Source: Limosilactobacillus sp. (GTDB taxonomy: Bacteria > Bacillota > Bacilli > Lactobacillales > Lactobacillaceae). Taken from it: a stretch of 64,000 nucleotides of DNA. Location of the stretch: contig NZ_JAKVPE010000001.1 in NCBI RefSeq assembly GCF_022482365.1, forward strand, positions 992,001 through 1,056,000, read 5' to 3'. Shown piece after piece: positions 27,960 to 36,112 of the stretch (position 1 is the first letter of the stretch; the number at the start of each line of letters is the position of its first letter). Below the pieces are notes generated by a model. That model saw only the letters and a program-made list of their open reading frames with translations. It did no database searches and was not told the DNA's origin. The translations under genes were made by a program, and so were the position numbers.

Positions 27960-28062
27960 GAAAGTGGGCAAGGAAACACGTTCTTTTAAAGACGTGATGA
28001 ATTGCCCTTCTTTTGTACCCAGCGGGCACATGGATAGCGTACAATATGATATAATTATTGAT

Positions 28063-28500
28063 ATGAAGGATATAAATAGGCTTACATATGGTAGAACATC
28101 GGTCTACAATCTTAATTACCATCTCATTTGGGGAACTAAGTATCGCAACAAAGTGCTGAAAGGACACGTTGAAATAGTCTTGAAGCGAACCTTGTATGAA
28201 ATTGCTTCAAAATATGGCTTTACAATTGCCCACATGGAGATTGGTAAAGACGATCACATTCACTTATTAGTGAGTGCGCCACCTAAATTATCGGTGACGA
28301 ATATCGTACGCTGGTTAAAAGGGATTTCCGCTTGGCAATTATTTAGAGAGTGCCCTGAGCTGCGAACTAGTTACTGGAAGAAGCAGGGACGCCACCTGTG
28401 GTCACCGAGTTACTATGTTGAAAGCATTGGTGCGGTCAATGAGCAGGCCGTGGCCAAATATATTGACGACCAACGCCGTAAAGAGGTGAACTTAGAATGA
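28063..28500 (+). CDS. tnpA: IS200/IS605 Y1 transposase TnpA
   Basis: 145 residues from the ATG at 28063 ([20 protein letters not shown]), the usual family length; an open frame extends upstream but has no homologous look. HUH motif HIH at 65-67 and nucleophile Tyr133 (VAKYIDDQ). It cuts and rejoins single-stranded element ends at subterminal hairpins. The start lacks a good ribosome site. The stop overlaps the tnpB start by four bases (ATGA), implying coupled translation. Confidence 0.9.
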
Positions 28501-29657
28501 GTAAGGTAATTAAAGGAGTCAAGCTATGCTTGTACCCAACTAAGGCTCAACAAGACCAGCTTTGGCAGATGTTTGGTAATGACCGGAAAGTCTGGAACCT
28601 GATGTTGGGTATGGCTAAGGAACGTTATGAGAACAACCCTAACAGTCATTTTGTTAATGAATACGGCATGAATTACCTGCTTAAACGTCTCAAAGAAGAA
28701 TATCCGTATCTCAGAGAAAGTGACGCAACTAGTTTTCTAGTGGTTAATCATAATCTCGCTCAAGCATTCAAAATGCTCTTCAAGCATCGGGGTGGTTATC
28801 CACGTTTCAAAAGCCGTCACGCTTTACGCCAATCCTATACGGGACGATCAACTTGCAAGGTGATTGCCAAACGTAGAATGCAATTGCCAAAACTAGGCAG
28901 TATCCGCACGAGCAAGACTAATCAAGTTGGCAATGCCAAAATTAAGCGGTACACCGTTAGTTATGACCCGACGGGACGTTATTACCTATCCTTACAAGTT
29001 GAAACTGAAACTTGCCAGCTGCCCAAAACTGGAAAATCCGTTGGCCTAGATGTTGGCATCGCAGATTTAGCCATCAGTTCCGATGGAGACAAATACGCTT
29101 CTTTTAACGCCAAATGGCATGAAAAGCAAGCCGTTAAGTGGCAAAGCAAATACTCTAAACGTCGTCACCAGGCAATGGTAGCCGTTCGTCAGTGGAATCA
29201 TAATCATAAAACGATTAAAGAAGATCTGGACGACTATCAAAATTGGCAACGGGCCAGAGTGACAAAGGCTCGTTACCAACAAAAGATAGCCAACAAGCGC
29301 AAGGATCACCTGCATAAGCTCACTACTAATTTAGTTAAGCAGTATGACGTGATTGTGATTGAGGATTTGAAAACCAAGAATCTCCAAAAGAATCACTGCT
29401 TAGCTAAATCTATTGCGAACGCCAGTTGGTATCAATTCCGCACCATGTTGGAGTATAAGTGTGCTTGGTATGGTAAACAGTTAATCGTGGTTAAGCCTAA
29501 CTACACCAGTCAGATTTGTAGCACTTGTGGGTATCACAGTGGTAAGAAGCCGCTAGAAATCCGGGAATGGACTTGTCCTAAGTGTGGAATACACCACGAT
29601 CGAGATATTAATGCGGCAGTTAATATCTTGCGTAGAGGATTAAAAGCCGTTGGTTAG
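28497..29657 (+). CDS. tnpB: TnpB RNA-guided nuclease
   Basis: 386 residues, the size of active TnpB proteins. RuvC residues are present: Asp185 ([11 protein letters not shown]), Glu289 ([11 protein letters not shown]) and the final DRD (368-370) in [10 protein letters not shown]. The zinc finger is intact (C341/C344, C360/C363). TnpB proteins are guided by an RNA from their own right end to cut DNA, helping the element persist. All catalytic positions look intact, so this copy may be active. Confidence 0.93.
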
Positions 29658-29775: not shown

Positions 29776-30948
29776 CTAGTGTTTAATGTAGCGCACCCGA
29801 CTGACCGCGTCGATTGCTTCCAGTTCCGCGGTTACCTTCTTAATATCTGCAGCATCGAGGTCGCTGATGTCGACGATCGTGTAGGCATACTTGTCACGGG
29901 ACCGGTTGACCAGGTTTTCGATGTTCAGTTGATTGTCGGCCATGACGGTCGTGATCTGCCCCAGCATGTTCGGCACGTTGCGGTGAATGATGGTGAAACG
30001 GTGCGGACCGGCAAAGGGCGCCTTGACATTCGGCAGGTTGACCGAATTGGCGGTGTTCCCGGTGGCGAGGTAGTCCATGATCTCGCGGGCCGCAATCCGG
30101 GCGCAGTTGGCCGTGGCCTCCTTCGTCGAACCGCCGATGTGAGGCGTGATCGTGACTTGATCGTTGCCCAGAATCTGCTCGTCACTGAAGTCGGTGCTGT
30201 AGTGGGCAACCTGGCCGTTCTCCAGGGCCGCCAGGACGGCCGCATTGTCGACGATTCCCAGGCGGGAGTAGTTGAGCAGCACCGCGCCCGGTTTGAACAT
30301 CGCCATCTCCTTGGCGCCAATCAGGCCCGTGGTCTCCTCATTCTTTGGTACGTGAACCGTGATAAAGTCGGCCCCAGCAACCGTCTCCTTGATCGTCGCC
30401 GCCCGCTTGACTGCCGGCGAAAGGTGCCAGGCCGAGTCAACCGACAGGTAGGGATCGTAGCCGGTGACGTCCATCCCCAGGTCAATTGCGGCGTTGGCCA
30501 CCAGCGAGCCGACGTGGCCCAGCCCCAGGATGGCCAGCTTCTTGCCCAGCAGTTCCGTGCCGCTGAACTGGGTCTTCTGTTTCTCCGTCCGCAGGGTGAT
30601 GTCGGCGCCGGGTGCGGCCGAAGCGCTCCAGTTGGCCGCATTGATCAGGTTCCGTTTGGCATCGATCATGATCGCCAGCACCAGTTCTTTAACCGCGTTG
30701 GCATTGCCACCGGGCGTGTTGAAGACCGCGATCCCGTCTTCTAAGGCCCGGTCCAGGGGGATGTTGTTAAAGCCGGCACCGCAGCGGGCAATCACCTTTA
30801 AGCTGGCCGGGAACTCCTGATCGTGCAGGTCAACGCTGCGGATCATGTAGGCGTCCGGGGCGGCAGCGTCCTGGTTGATTCGGTAGTCGTCGGTAAATTC
30901 TGCCAGGCCGGCCTGGGCAATGGCGTTGTAGGTTTTAATATTGTACAT
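29776..30948 (-). CDS. serA: D-3-phosphoglycerate dehydrogenase
   Basis: 390 residues. First step of serine biosynthesis: 3-phosphoglycerate to 3-phosphohydroxypyruvate with NAD. Substrate region RCGAGFNNIPLD, nucleotide-binding GLGHVGSLVA (~145), catalytic histidine in ITPHIGGST, and a C-terminal ACT domain (FTIIHRNVPNMLGQITTVMA) that may sense serine. 16 bp downstream of serC, one operon. The TAG stop directly abuts the IS200/IS605 right end; the coding sequence is intact. Confidence 0.95.
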   Translation of the reverse strand: MYNIKTYNAIAQAGLAEFTDDYRINQDAAAPDAYMIRSVDLHDQEFPASLKVIARCGAGFNNIPLDRALEDGIAVFNTPGGNANAVKELVLAIMIDAKRNLINAANWSASAAPGADITLRTEKQKTQFSGTELLGKKLAILGLGHVGSLVANAAIDLGMDVTGYDPYLSVDSAWHLSPAVKRAATIKETVAGADFITVHVPKNEETTGLIGAKEMAMFKPGAVLLNYSRLGIVDNAAVLAALENGQVAHYSTDFSDEQILGNDQVTITPHIGGSTKEATANCARIAAREIMDYLATGNTANSVNLPNVKAPFAGPHRFTIIHRNVPNMLGQITTVMADNQLNIENLVNRSRDKYAYTIVDISDLDAADIKKVTAELEAIDAVSRVRYIKH

Positions 30949-30964: not shown

Positions 30965-32038
30965 CTATGCGTGTTCCCGTTCAAATTTCGCCATAAAATC
31001 GCGCAGGGCAACCGCGCCTTCGTATGGCATGGCGTTATAGAGACTGGCCCGCATTCCCCCGACCAGCCGGTGGCCCTTGAGGTTCTTCAAGCCGGCCTGG
31101 TCAGCTTCCTGGACAAAGGCGGCATCCAGGTCCGGATCACCGGTCGTAAACGGGATGTTGGTTAGCGAGCGGGCGTCTGGCGCGACCTTGTTGGTGAAGA
31201 GCTTCGATTCAGCCAGGTAGTCGTAGATCAGGTTGGACTTCTTGACGTTTTGATCGTTGATTGCTTCGACCCCACCCTGGTCCTCAAGCCACTTCATCAC
31301 TAGGTTGGCGACGTAAATCTGGAAGACCGGCGGCGTGTTGAGCGTCGAGTGCTTCTTCGCCAGGGCCGGGTAGTTCAGCATGCTTGGCAGGGTGCTTTCC
31401 TGATCCAGAAGGTGCTTTTTCAGGACCACGATCGTCAGTCCCGCCGGCGCCAGGTTCTTCTGCGCCCCGGCATAGATCAGGTCGAAACGCTTGAAGTCGT
31501 AGGTTTGCCCCAAAAAGTTCGACGACAGGTCCCCCACCAGCGGCACCGTCGTCTCCGGCAGTTCGTGGTAGGTCGTGCCGTAGATCGTATTGTTACCGGT
31601 GATGTGCAGGTAGTCGTAGGTGTCAGCCGGCAGTTCGGGAACGGTCGGAATTGTCGTAAAGTCGGGGCCCGCATCCGTGACCGTGTCGACCGTCAGCCCA
31701 GGGATCTTCTCGGCTTCCTCAATCGCCCGCTCTGACCAGTGACCGGTATTAGCGTAGGCAACGCGGTGATATCTGGTGGCCAGGTTCAGCGGCACCATCG
31801 TAAACTGCAAGGTGCCTCCACCCTGAAGGAAGAGGGCCTCGTAGTCGTCCCCCAGGTGCATCAGCTTGAGGACGCGGTCGTGAGCCTGGGTGAGCACCTC
31901 ATCAAAGAGTGGCGAACGGTGCGAAATCTCGACAATGCTCATCCCAGAGCCATGGTAATCGAGCAGTTCGGCTTGAACTTGTTTGAGAACGGTCCGTGGC
32001 AAGGTAGCTGGACCGGCGGCGTAGTTATAAATTGGCAT
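30965..32038 (-). CDS. serC: Phosphoserine aminotransferase
   Basis: 357 residues from the ATG at 32038 (MPIYNYAAGPATLPRTVL), with GGAGGG upstream; an open frame runs further but has no ribosome site and includes the leader terminator. PLP enzyme converting 3-phosphohydroxypyruvate plus glutamate to phosphoserine. PLP lysine in LIYAGAQKNLAPAG, and the conserved GMRASLYNAMP near the end. First gene of serC-serA, downstream of the serine-codon attenuator. Confidence 0.95.
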   Translation of the reverse strand: MPIYNYAAGPATLPRTVLKQVQAELLDYHGSGMSIVEISHRSPLFDEVLTQAHDRVLKLMHLGDDYEALFLQGGGTLQFTMVPLNLATRYHRVAYANTGHWSERAIEEAEKIPGLTVDTVTDAGPDFTTIPTVPELPADTYDYLHITGNNTIYGTTYHELPETTVPLVGDLSSNFLGQTYDFKRFDLIYAGAQKNLAPAGLTIVVLKKHLLDQESTLPSMLNYPALAKKHSTLNTPPVFQIYVANLVMKWLEDQGGVEAINDQNVKKSNLIYDYLAESKLFTNKVAPDARSLTNIPFTTGDPDLDAAFVQEADQAGLKNLKGHRLVGGMRASLYNAMPYEGAVALRDFMAKFEREHA

Positions 32039-32065
32039 GTTGATCCCTCCAAATCGTCTGGTACG

Positions 32066-32094
32066 AAAAAAGGCCCCCACTGTTCGTGGAGACC
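32066..32094 (-). terminator. Attenuator terminator in serC leader
   Basis: GGTCTCCAC (32086-32094) pairs with GTGGGGGCC (32072-32080) over nine base pairs with two G-U, loop of five, then six T. It lies 28 bp before serC, so it can only act as a leader terminator. Confidence 0.88.
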
Positions 32095-32120
32095 ATTGGA
32101 TTAGGATCCTAATCTAGTTC

Positions 32121-32145
32121 GTGGCCCCCACCATGTGAAGGCCAC
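32121..32145 (-). promoter_or_regulatory. serC leader stem 3:4 and antiterminator strand
   Basis: GTGGCCTTCAC pairs with GTGGGGGCCAC over 11 bp with a three-base loop. The second arm carries GTGGGGGCC (32123-32131), an exact copy of the terminator's 3' arm, so it can instead pair with the terminator's 5' arm (32086-32094) and prevent termination. Between them a GATTAGGATCCTAATC palindrome (32099-32114) forms its own stem. Confidence 0.75.
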
Positions 32146-32155
32146 CCCAAAAGGC

Positions 32156-32180
32156 CAGCCTTCTAAATGCTAGAAGACTG
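32156..32180 (-). promoter_or_regulatory. serC leader stem 1:2 over the serine codons
   Basis: CAGTCTTCTA (in the leader peptide) pairs with TAGAAGGCTG, ten base pairs, loop of five bases or fewer. The right arm also can pair as GAAGGCT with GGCCTTC of stem 3 (32137-32143). These mutually exclusive pairings fit a ribosome-controlled switch. Confidence 0.75.
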
Positions 32181-32219
32181 GGAGGAGCTTAATAATACTG
32201 TCTTGAGATTCTTCATCAT
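32163..32219 (-). CDS. Serine-rich leader peptide of serCA
   Basis: 18-codon reading frame MMKNLKTVLLSSSQSSSI, then TAG. Six of seven codons near its end are serine (AGC TCC TCC CAG TCT TCT AGC). Perfect ribosome site AAGGAGG seven bases before the ATG. It sits between a consensus promoter and the leader terminator. I read it as an attenuation leader peptide: ribosome stalling on serine codons in serine shortage would free the antiterminator. Not matched to any described leader I know of. Confidence 0.85.
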   Translation of the reverse strand: MMKNLKTVLLSSSQSSSI

Positions 32220-32258
32220 GGTGCTCCCTCCTTTTGGGCATTACAAATCATTAATTAA

Positions 32259-32287
32259 ATTCTAACCTCGATTTAATTTTTTGTCAA
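32259..32287 (-). promoter_or_regulatory. serCA promoter
   Basis: -35 TTGACA (32282-32287), 17 bp, -10 TAGAAT (32259-32264), reading leftward; predicted start near 32252, giving a leader of about 215 nt. It overlaps the divergent phosphatase promoter. Confidence 0.8.
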
Positions 32288-32300
32288 TATCCGGTATAAT
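32272..32300 (+). promoter_or_regulatory. Promoter of divergent histidine phosphatase
   Basis: -10 TATAAT (32295-32300) with weak -35 TTTAAT (32272-32277), 17 bp spacing. The serCA -35 lies inside this spacer, so the two polymerases would compete. Confidence 0.55.
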
Positions 32301-35912: not shown

Positions 35913-36106
35913 TCAATCAACGTTCTTTTGAATCTATTCCGGAAGCGCCCCGCAGCATTGCGACAGTCCACCGCCTCTTTGACGATGGCCCAACAAGGAA
36001 CGCTAGTAAGGACGTCCCCGTTTCGGCACTGCTCCCTTTCACCGCGGCTTCAGGTGCTCACTCACCTCACCGTGGCTACTAATCAGCAGTGCAACCTCTT
36101 CATTAT
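35913..36106 (-). ncRNA. Lysine riboswitch (L-box)
   Basis: Minus-strand leader with the L-box core in order: GAAGAGGTTGCACTGC, ATTAGTAGCC, TGAAAGGGAGCAGTGCCGAA, a TTGTTGGGCC segment and GGTGGACTGTC. These align with the five-helix junction of the Bacillus lysC leader as I remember it. It is followed by a terminator and lysP, so lysine binding should stop permease synthesis. Confidence 0.9.
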
Positions 36107-36112
36107 TTTCTA

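Follow-up and report, generated by a model that had tools for sequence, protein, structure and literature searches.

The window, by which we mean the whole 64,000-nt stretch of Limosilactobacillus DNA analysed here, carries on its minus strand a gene for the phosphoserine transaminase SerC (30965–32038; NCBIfam NF003764, 471.8 bits against a cut-off of 253), followed by a serA-like phosphoglycerate dehydrogenase gene as the second gene of the operon (29776–30948, minus strand). The best NCBIfam model of the latter is the PGDH model TIGR01327 at 236 bits, below its cut-off of 454, and by sequence the gene is consistent with serA; a relative follows downstream, in the same orientation, in all 58 of the loci L001–L058, some of which are the same genome taken twice. 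The coordinates agree with the order serC then serA given in the title of a preliminary description of this DNA.

A histidine-phosphatase gene (PF00300; 32317–32952, plus strand) diverges from serCA, as it does in 47 of the 49 leader-bearing loci among L001–L058. Its NCBIfam scores for alpha-ribazole phosphatase (104.3, cut-off 162.9) and for the phosphoserine phosphatase PspA (102.7, cut-off 350) are nearly equal and below cut-off. Because the window's own genome gave no match over cut-off for SerB (best 38 bits), this divergent gene is a candidate and may encode the missing phosphoserine phosphatase. Elsewhere in the window, a lysine riboswitch (35935–36108, minus strand, 99 bits) precedes an amino acid permease gene (PF00324, at about 35858–34368), and an IS200/IS605-type element (28054–29657, plus strand) contains a Y1 transposase gene (PF01797) and then a TnpB-like gene (PF01385, PF07282). 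A tRNA-Ser gene in the adjoining tRNA cluster was ruled out; the cluster reads Pro, Arg, Gly, Leu, Val.

Architecture of the serC leader

Upstream of serC, on the same minus strand, lies a sigma-70-type promoter, TTGACA-17 nt-TAGAAT (32259–32287), which matches 11 of 12 consensus positions, in keeping with the consensus promoter claimed earlier. A Shine-Dalgarno sequence read as AGGAGGG (32226–32232) precedes an 18-codon leader ORF encoding MMKNLKTVLLSSSQSSSI (32163–32219, with ATG at 32219 and TAG at 32165–32163), the sensor codons of which, AGC TCC TCC CAG TCT TCT AGC (32169–32189), specify serine at six of seven positions. The leader contains six arms with five mutually exclusive pairings, in which every arm except the outer two has two partners. 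Arm 1 (CCAGTCTTC, 32173–32181) pairs with arm 2 (GAAGGCTGG, 32155–32163), the first base of which is the last base of the leader TAG; arm 2 can pair instead with arm 3 (GTGGCCTTCAC, 32135–32145), arm 3 in turn with arm 4 (GTGGGGGCCAC, 32121–32131), and arm 4, as an antiterminator, with arm 5 (TGGTCTCCAC, 32086–32095), the 5′ arm of the terminator. Arm 6, GTGGGGGCC together with the U tract (32066–32080), is the 3′ half of the intrinsic terminator, which a consensus scan of the window placed at 32094–32066 with six U, and 27 bases separate the U tract from the serC start codon at 32038.

Duplex energies in the window are −12.8, −12.1, −15.9, −16.0 and −14.4 kcal/mol for 1:2, 2:3, 3:4, 4:5 and 5:6, respectively. 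The preliminary description had anticipated these parts: the serine-rich peptide with its strong ribosome site is present, stem 1:2 lies over the serine codons at 32181–32155, stem 3:4 has 11 bp (32145–32121), arm 2 can indeed pair with arm 3, and arm 4 carries a copy of GTGGGGGCC identical to terminator arm 6 and is hence able to pair with the 5′ arm, over 10 bp.

The enteric his attenuator has six arms, A to F, with pairings A:B, C:D and E:F set against B:C and D:E, and the serC leader resembles it in its run of cognate codons, in the same arm alternation and in a terminator placed before the first gene. It differs in its codons, which are for serine and not histidine, in its genes, which are serC-serA and not his genes, and in its host family, the Lactobacillaceae; the sequence comparison was made via Rfam alone. 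From this layout we infer leader translation, stalling at serine codons, polymerase timing and a transcriptional response, in the following form. RNA polymerase would start at the 32287–32259 promoter with a ribosome translating the leader behind it. When seryl-tRNA is short, the ribosome would wait in the serine run and cover arm 1, whereupon 2:3 would form, arm 4 would be free to pair with arm 5, no terminator would form and serC-serA would be transcribed. When serine is plentiful, the ribosome would reach the stop codon and cover arm 2, 3:4 and 5:6 would form, and transcription would end at the U tract. In the absence of translation, 1:2 and 3:4 would form first and termination is expected.

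Distribution across the Lactobacillaceae

SerC was matched in 172 of 397 Lactobacillaceae genomes, and 134 serC upstream regions, of 330–480 bases each, were taken from the matches listed in this 397-genome scan and from a genus search. A serine-cluster leader was present upstream of serC in 95 of the 134 regions and in 13 of 20 genera. Genera are labelled g1–g40, and organism names apply to the 23 loci of the SerC scan. Twenty-one of these named loci have a serine-cluster leader, including members of Limosilactobacillus, Ligilactobacillus, Agrilactobacillus, Companilactobacillus, Secundilactobacillus and Lacticaseibacillus, and the two that lack it come from a Lactobacillus sp. MAG (L003) and from Capnocytophaga (L022).

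The leader was found in every region (81 of 81) of g4 (18), g11 (6), g12 (4), g13 (19), g20 (10), g23 (3), g32 (2) and g38 (19), and g19, g26 and g37 have it in the one region read for each; the window's genus has it in 10 of 11 regions and g22 in one of eight. Within the 330–480 bases read, it was absent from g3 (0/6), g30 (0/14) and g33 (0/7) and from the one-region genera g2, g6, g16 and g36. Two leaders, at L069 and L073, were counted though displaced, with gaps to serC of 360 and 573 nt, while the counts exclude L104 and the leader-bearing L187; L156 and L157, flagged by the script, were classed as non-leaders. In L185, in L186 and upstream of L069 and L073, several hundred extra bases lie between the leader terminator and serC, in two genomes. 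In L156 (g6), a possible degenerate serine leader, MLIIQLNNHVLFSSSPVGTHC (SSS), stands before a terminator and serC, outside these counts.

The rule applied to ORFs asked for 12–45 codons, a ribosome site and three of one residue within six. Over the 134 regions it returned serine clusters in 95 (a figure that includes L156 and L157 and omits the two displaced leaders), asparagine clusters in 26, leucine clusters in 16 and clusters of any other residue in at most 8; on the opposite strand of the same regions, where ten residues were checked, it returned 11 for serine and 16 for leucine. Judged by these counts, the serine cluster before serC exceeds chance.

A covariance model, R1, was built from alignment A2, which holds 31 leaders of the commoner type, and was run on the 397 Lactobacillaceae genomes. 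Matches at E ≤ 0.01 occurred in 185 of the 397 genomes; the analysis uses the 89 matches at E ≤ 1.6e-12, all of which lie before serC on its strand, 88 of them 17–573 nt upstream of a listed serC and the 89th at L199, where serC is broken in that assembly. The window leader is of the other type than that of R1. In the window's own genome (G000), R1 gave no match at E ≤ 0.01 under strict filters, with 7 of 195 first-look candidates scored, and the membership of the window therefore rests on its arms and peptide. In 395 genomes drawn from the order, the best R1 match beyond the family, at L188, had an E-value no lower than 5e-7 and shows no serine leader. The 20 regions inspected after the R1 search comprised three serC leaders, this outside-family match and 16 weak family matches, of which 13 have another leader-like ORF and three (L180, L183 and L190) have none.

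Covariation of the alternative pairings

Alignment A1, of all types together, misplaced arm 3, and the two types were therefore aligned separately, as A2 and as A3, the latter with nine window-type leaders. In A2, 91.9% of cells formed the antiterminator pairings 2:3 and 4:5 and 31 had changed on both sides, against averages of 86.2% and 8.4 in 500 shuffles, none of which reached either value. For the pairings 1:2, 3:4 and 5:6 the figures were 91.8% and 52 (shuffles 86.2% and 15.2; 0 of 500). Kinship among the sequences can lift such values above the shuffles for other reasons. When the partner was slid by 1–3 columns, pairing was only 31.6–58.8% for the antiterminator set and 33.3–48.4% for the other, a comparison in which the true register has the advantage that the structure was derived from one aligned row. 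Eight pairs of the antiterminator set show two-sided change, a number that 27 of 500 shuffles reach, and in 11 of the 31 leaders pair 37:79 does not form.

Kinship and the one-row structure are unlikely to be the full explanation of this covariation, because competing pairings with common arms both hold. Arms 4 and 5 have been rebuilt jointly in some species, for example in L115 and L097, and all five duplexes form in nine of nine window-type leaders, with arms picked by eye. The alignments thus indicate that the mutually exclusive antiterminator pairings are kept by compensatory change. The comparison with relatives that had been proposed for this locus has returned recurrent serine codons and all five pairings with covariation, in a leader that extends over the 13 genera given above.

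Modelled direction of the switch

A best terminator candidate was identified in 106 of 106 unique leaders (8 of 114 are identical to others), with a median of −18.8 kcal/mol and as a count without a random control. In at least 81 of 102 leaders, these being the ones among 105 that gave a hairpin, the leader stop starts within −1 to +11 nt of the first base of arm 2, a placement by which a ribosome at the stop would cover arm 2. Hairpin 1:2 is followed by a U-rich stretch, with T in 58–78% at positions 3–6, which could be a polymerase pause site.

We folded the transcript up to arm 4 with a ribosome masked at the first serine codons, at the stop codon or absent, in 102 of the 106 leaders; L028, L032, L041 and L112, in which arm 4 had been placed too early, were skipped, and the arms of L030, L031 and L033 were set by motif. 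Mean sequestration of arm 4 was 0.56 with the stalled ribosome, 0.75 with the ribosome at the stop and 0.76 without a ribosome. The switch direction asserted in the preliminary description is recovered in part by these folds: in 45 of 102 leaders the value at the stop lies more than 0.2 above the stalled value, in 0 of 102 it lies more than 0.2 below, and the other 57 leaders gave no clear difference. Region-shuffled controls (510) went in the predicted direction in 6.1% and in the reverse direction in 20.2%. The ribosome-free value was above the stalled value in 51 leaders, with the reverse in one, and an earlier folding test, which read arm 5 and located terminators less well, favoured the prediction in 58 of 106 leaders and opposed it in one.

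In the window itself the difference is modest, with arm 4 sequestration of 0.74 when stalled and 0.87 at the stop. Folded up to arm 5, the stalled state contains 2:3 and 4:5, the state with the ribosome at the stop contains 3:4, and the ribosome-free state contains 4:5 instead of 3:4, although 3:4 forms first; with the ribosome at the third serine codon, 3:4 persists in the shorter transcript that extends to arm 4. In the complete transcript, each of the four states shown has the terminator as its most stable structure, and the decision must therefore depend on timing, as arm 5 emerges.

Leader peptide and codon choice

The N-termini of the leader peptides vary in length and sequence, whereas a core SS-x-S is kept; across 105 leaders its central residue is most often W (67), the rest being K (12), R (11), L (10) or Q (5). 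A role of the central Trp codon as a second sensor was set aside, with another residue in 38 of 105. These features bear on whether the same RNA switch senses a general slowing of translation, by antibiotics or by shortage of several amino acids, and not serine specifically. Drug-sensing ribosome-arrest leaders exist in Firmicutes, and a ribosome delayed over arm 1 for whatever reason could favour the antiterminated fold. However, across 13 genera the sensor position ahead of a serine operon retains its serine clusters, as counted among leaders that were found via the serine cluster (serC leaders with other codons would escape the ORF rule), while the non-serine codon in the middle varies and the N-terminus shows no conservation; we therefore regard general slowing as unlikely.

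The same conservation pattern addresses the idea that the small ORF encodes a functional serine-rich peptide, with a plain terminator between it and serC. Its strong ribosome site and its conservation in place would suit such a peptide gene, but the N-terminus is free in length and sequence, and conservation falls mainly on the serine codons and on alternative pairings for which a simple peptide gene would have no use, which leaves this explanation with very little probability.

Serine codons at positions −3 to −1 are TCC 179, TCA 61, TCT 13, AGC 11 and AGT 7, in a table of 105 of the 106 leaders (L143 lacks the anchor) in which position −1 is serine by construction. They vary synonymously and between TCN and AGY, as would be expected of selection on serine. 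A further explanation would make the serine runs a by-product of an RNA motif, TCCTCC plus arm 1, with control exerted at the start of leader translation. GGAGG in the leader's own ribosome site is the complement of TCCTCC, and TCC stands at position −2 in 84 of 105 and at position −1 in 84 of 105 leaders. The remaining leaders, however, mostly have TCA or TCT there, by which serine is kept and the complement weakened, and position −3 is serine in 66 of 105 leaders using at least four codons, making a bare RNA motif a highly improbable source of the serine runs.

Among 393 serine codons of the leader cores, 373 are TCN, 20 AGY and none TCG, as against 1083 TCN among 1709 serine codons, with 251 TCG, in the serC and serA genes of leader loci; the p-value of this comparison is a guide only, as the sequences are related and some genomes occur twice, and the core lies partly inside arm 1. 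According to PMC3862929, B. subtilis ribosomes starved of serine slow at UCN and not at AGC or AGU codons, and because of this behaviour the UCN-rich core fits, by analogy, a starvation sensor. The SinR sensor of B. subtilis described there shares with the proposed serC mechanism a slowing of translation at TCN serine codons once serine is exhausted, but operates without an RNA switch or leader peptide.

Relation to known regulatory leaders

T-box leaders likewise sense an amino acid via tRNA charging and switch a terminator, and a T-box or metabolite riboswitch could in principle control serC, with the small ORF incidental. In most Firmicutes, serS and further genes for tRNA ligases are under T-box control, and T-boxes have been reported for the his genes and operons of Lactobacillales (PMC2494555, PMC9413887). 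By contrast, neither the serC leader of the window nor the leaders of seven other loci, scanned together with eight leaderless regions, gave an Rfam 15 match at the gathering score, the T-box core TGGNACCGCG does not occur in 32039–32300 even with one mismatch, and RF00230 gave no match in the leader. The conserved serine frame and stop position also speak against an incidental ORF, and we consider control by a T-box or riboswitch extremely unlikely. Unlike T-boxes, the serC leader has no T-box core, and its sensing would need translation.

With the sequence parts, their conservation, the covariation of the pairings, the location at serC and the modelled direction in part of the leaders as observations, the leader very probably attenuates transcription through the ribosome, specifically in response to serine, with six arms laid out as in the his operon. 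Given how it is conserved among related genera, the element probably allows serC-serA to be switched on by a ribosome that waits for serine.

The preliminary description had further held that no serine leader of this kind was known and that Firmicutes mostly use T-boxes or riboswitches for amino-acid genes. No serine leader was found in the open-access literature among the matches listed, mostly titles and abstract starts, or in Rfam 15, and in an RNA-motif survey with several leader-ORF motifs the word serC is absent from the main text (PMC8632094). Classical attenuation as such is, however, already on record in Firmicutes. His leader peptides, regular attenuators, have been described there (Naville and Gautheret 2010, PMC2965389; PMC9413887); they share with the serC leader the use of leader-peptide attenuation in Gram-positives, where T-boxes are the rule, and differ in sensing histidine and in their hosts, which are bacilli, Peptostreptococcaceae and Erysipelotrichaceae. 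The S. aureus ilv-leu operon has a Leu-rich classical attenuator with genetic support, in a paper that also cites predicted branched-chain amino acid leaders in Lactococcus and Streptococcus (PMC5794164); both it and the serC leader are classical and from a Firmicute, with leucine, a different operon and a different RNA in S. aureus. As a ribosome-mediated attenuator, the serC leader appears to be new in its amino acid, its lineage and the number of genera that carry it.

Candidate leaders for other amino acids

The weak R1 matches led to other leader-like peptides before fitting genes. In seven g13 loci, MIKINSKINRFYYYWYA and variants stand before DAHP synthase-aroB, the DAHP synthase of L172 matching NF006421 at 421.8 bits (cut-off 335), and in L171–L177, L221 and L223–L230 (g13, partly the same genomes) peptides of the form ..INRFYYYWxx are followed by a terminator and then by DAHP synthase and aroB. 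From this arrangement, the ..NRFYYYW.. peptides before DAHP synthase-aroB are likely to belong to an aromatic amino acid attenuator. In L211–L214 (g38), peptides such as MRWLNNSQKSNRFYYYWFQQ lie ~225 nt before a transketolase gene, a call made by PF00456 on the fragment of L211; transketolase supplies a precursor of the aromatic pathway. In L178, L179, L201 and L202 (g12, two genomes taken twice), MSTTLISHANRYYYFWFFHKHL and a terminator precede a class I aminotransferase gene (PF00155).

Four further peptides were observed: one with a single Trp before TrpX in L181 (g35; NF041285, 434.5 bits, cut-off 390), a Leu-rich one before a lactate-dehydrogenase-like gene in L182 (g36; lactate/malate dehydrogenase domain, on a fragment), one with YYFWF before a PTS EIIC-like protein in L184 (g8), and an Ile-rich one in L189 (g34) before an ORF whose first 70 residues have no Pfam match.

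The codon pattern R-[FY]-Y-[FY]-[FY]-W occurred in 68 of 397 genomes and is by itself hardly enriched, because the reversed control gives about 57 by hand count; for the aromatic leaders, the evidence is thus one of gene context. Thirty pattern loci were read, some of them already inspected from R1: a short ORF preceded a DAHP-synthase-like start in nine, a transketolase gene in four and an aminotransferase gene in two, and the other 15 showed no clear leader. Considering the serine leader, the aromatic leaders and the candidate Trp and Leu leaders together, we lean slightly towards the view that Lactobacillaceae use classical attenuation repeatedly.

In B. subtilis, RNA polymerase outruns the ribosomes, as stated in a review (PMC7858274). 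If classical attenuation is indeed used repeatedly, translation would keep pace with transcription in Lactobacillaceae leaders, unlike the runaway transcription of B. subtilis, leader peptides would replace T-boxes in this family, and the codon choice of the serine leaders, without TCG and with little AGY, would show which tRNA-Ser isoacceptors are the first to lose their charge.

With the serC leader, serine joins the amino acids for which leader-peptide attenuators are the apparent sensors, in a phylum hitherto thought reliant on T-boxes and riboswitches. Nature offers about a hundred versions of this one switch, and their codon choice amounts to a natural experiment on the serine codons that sense starvation. 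Serine-responsive control of expression in food-grade bacteria is a further use that the element suggests. Attenuators of this kind need a ribosome close behind RNA polymerase, and the coupling of transcription and translation in lactic acid bacteria therefore becomes directly testable.
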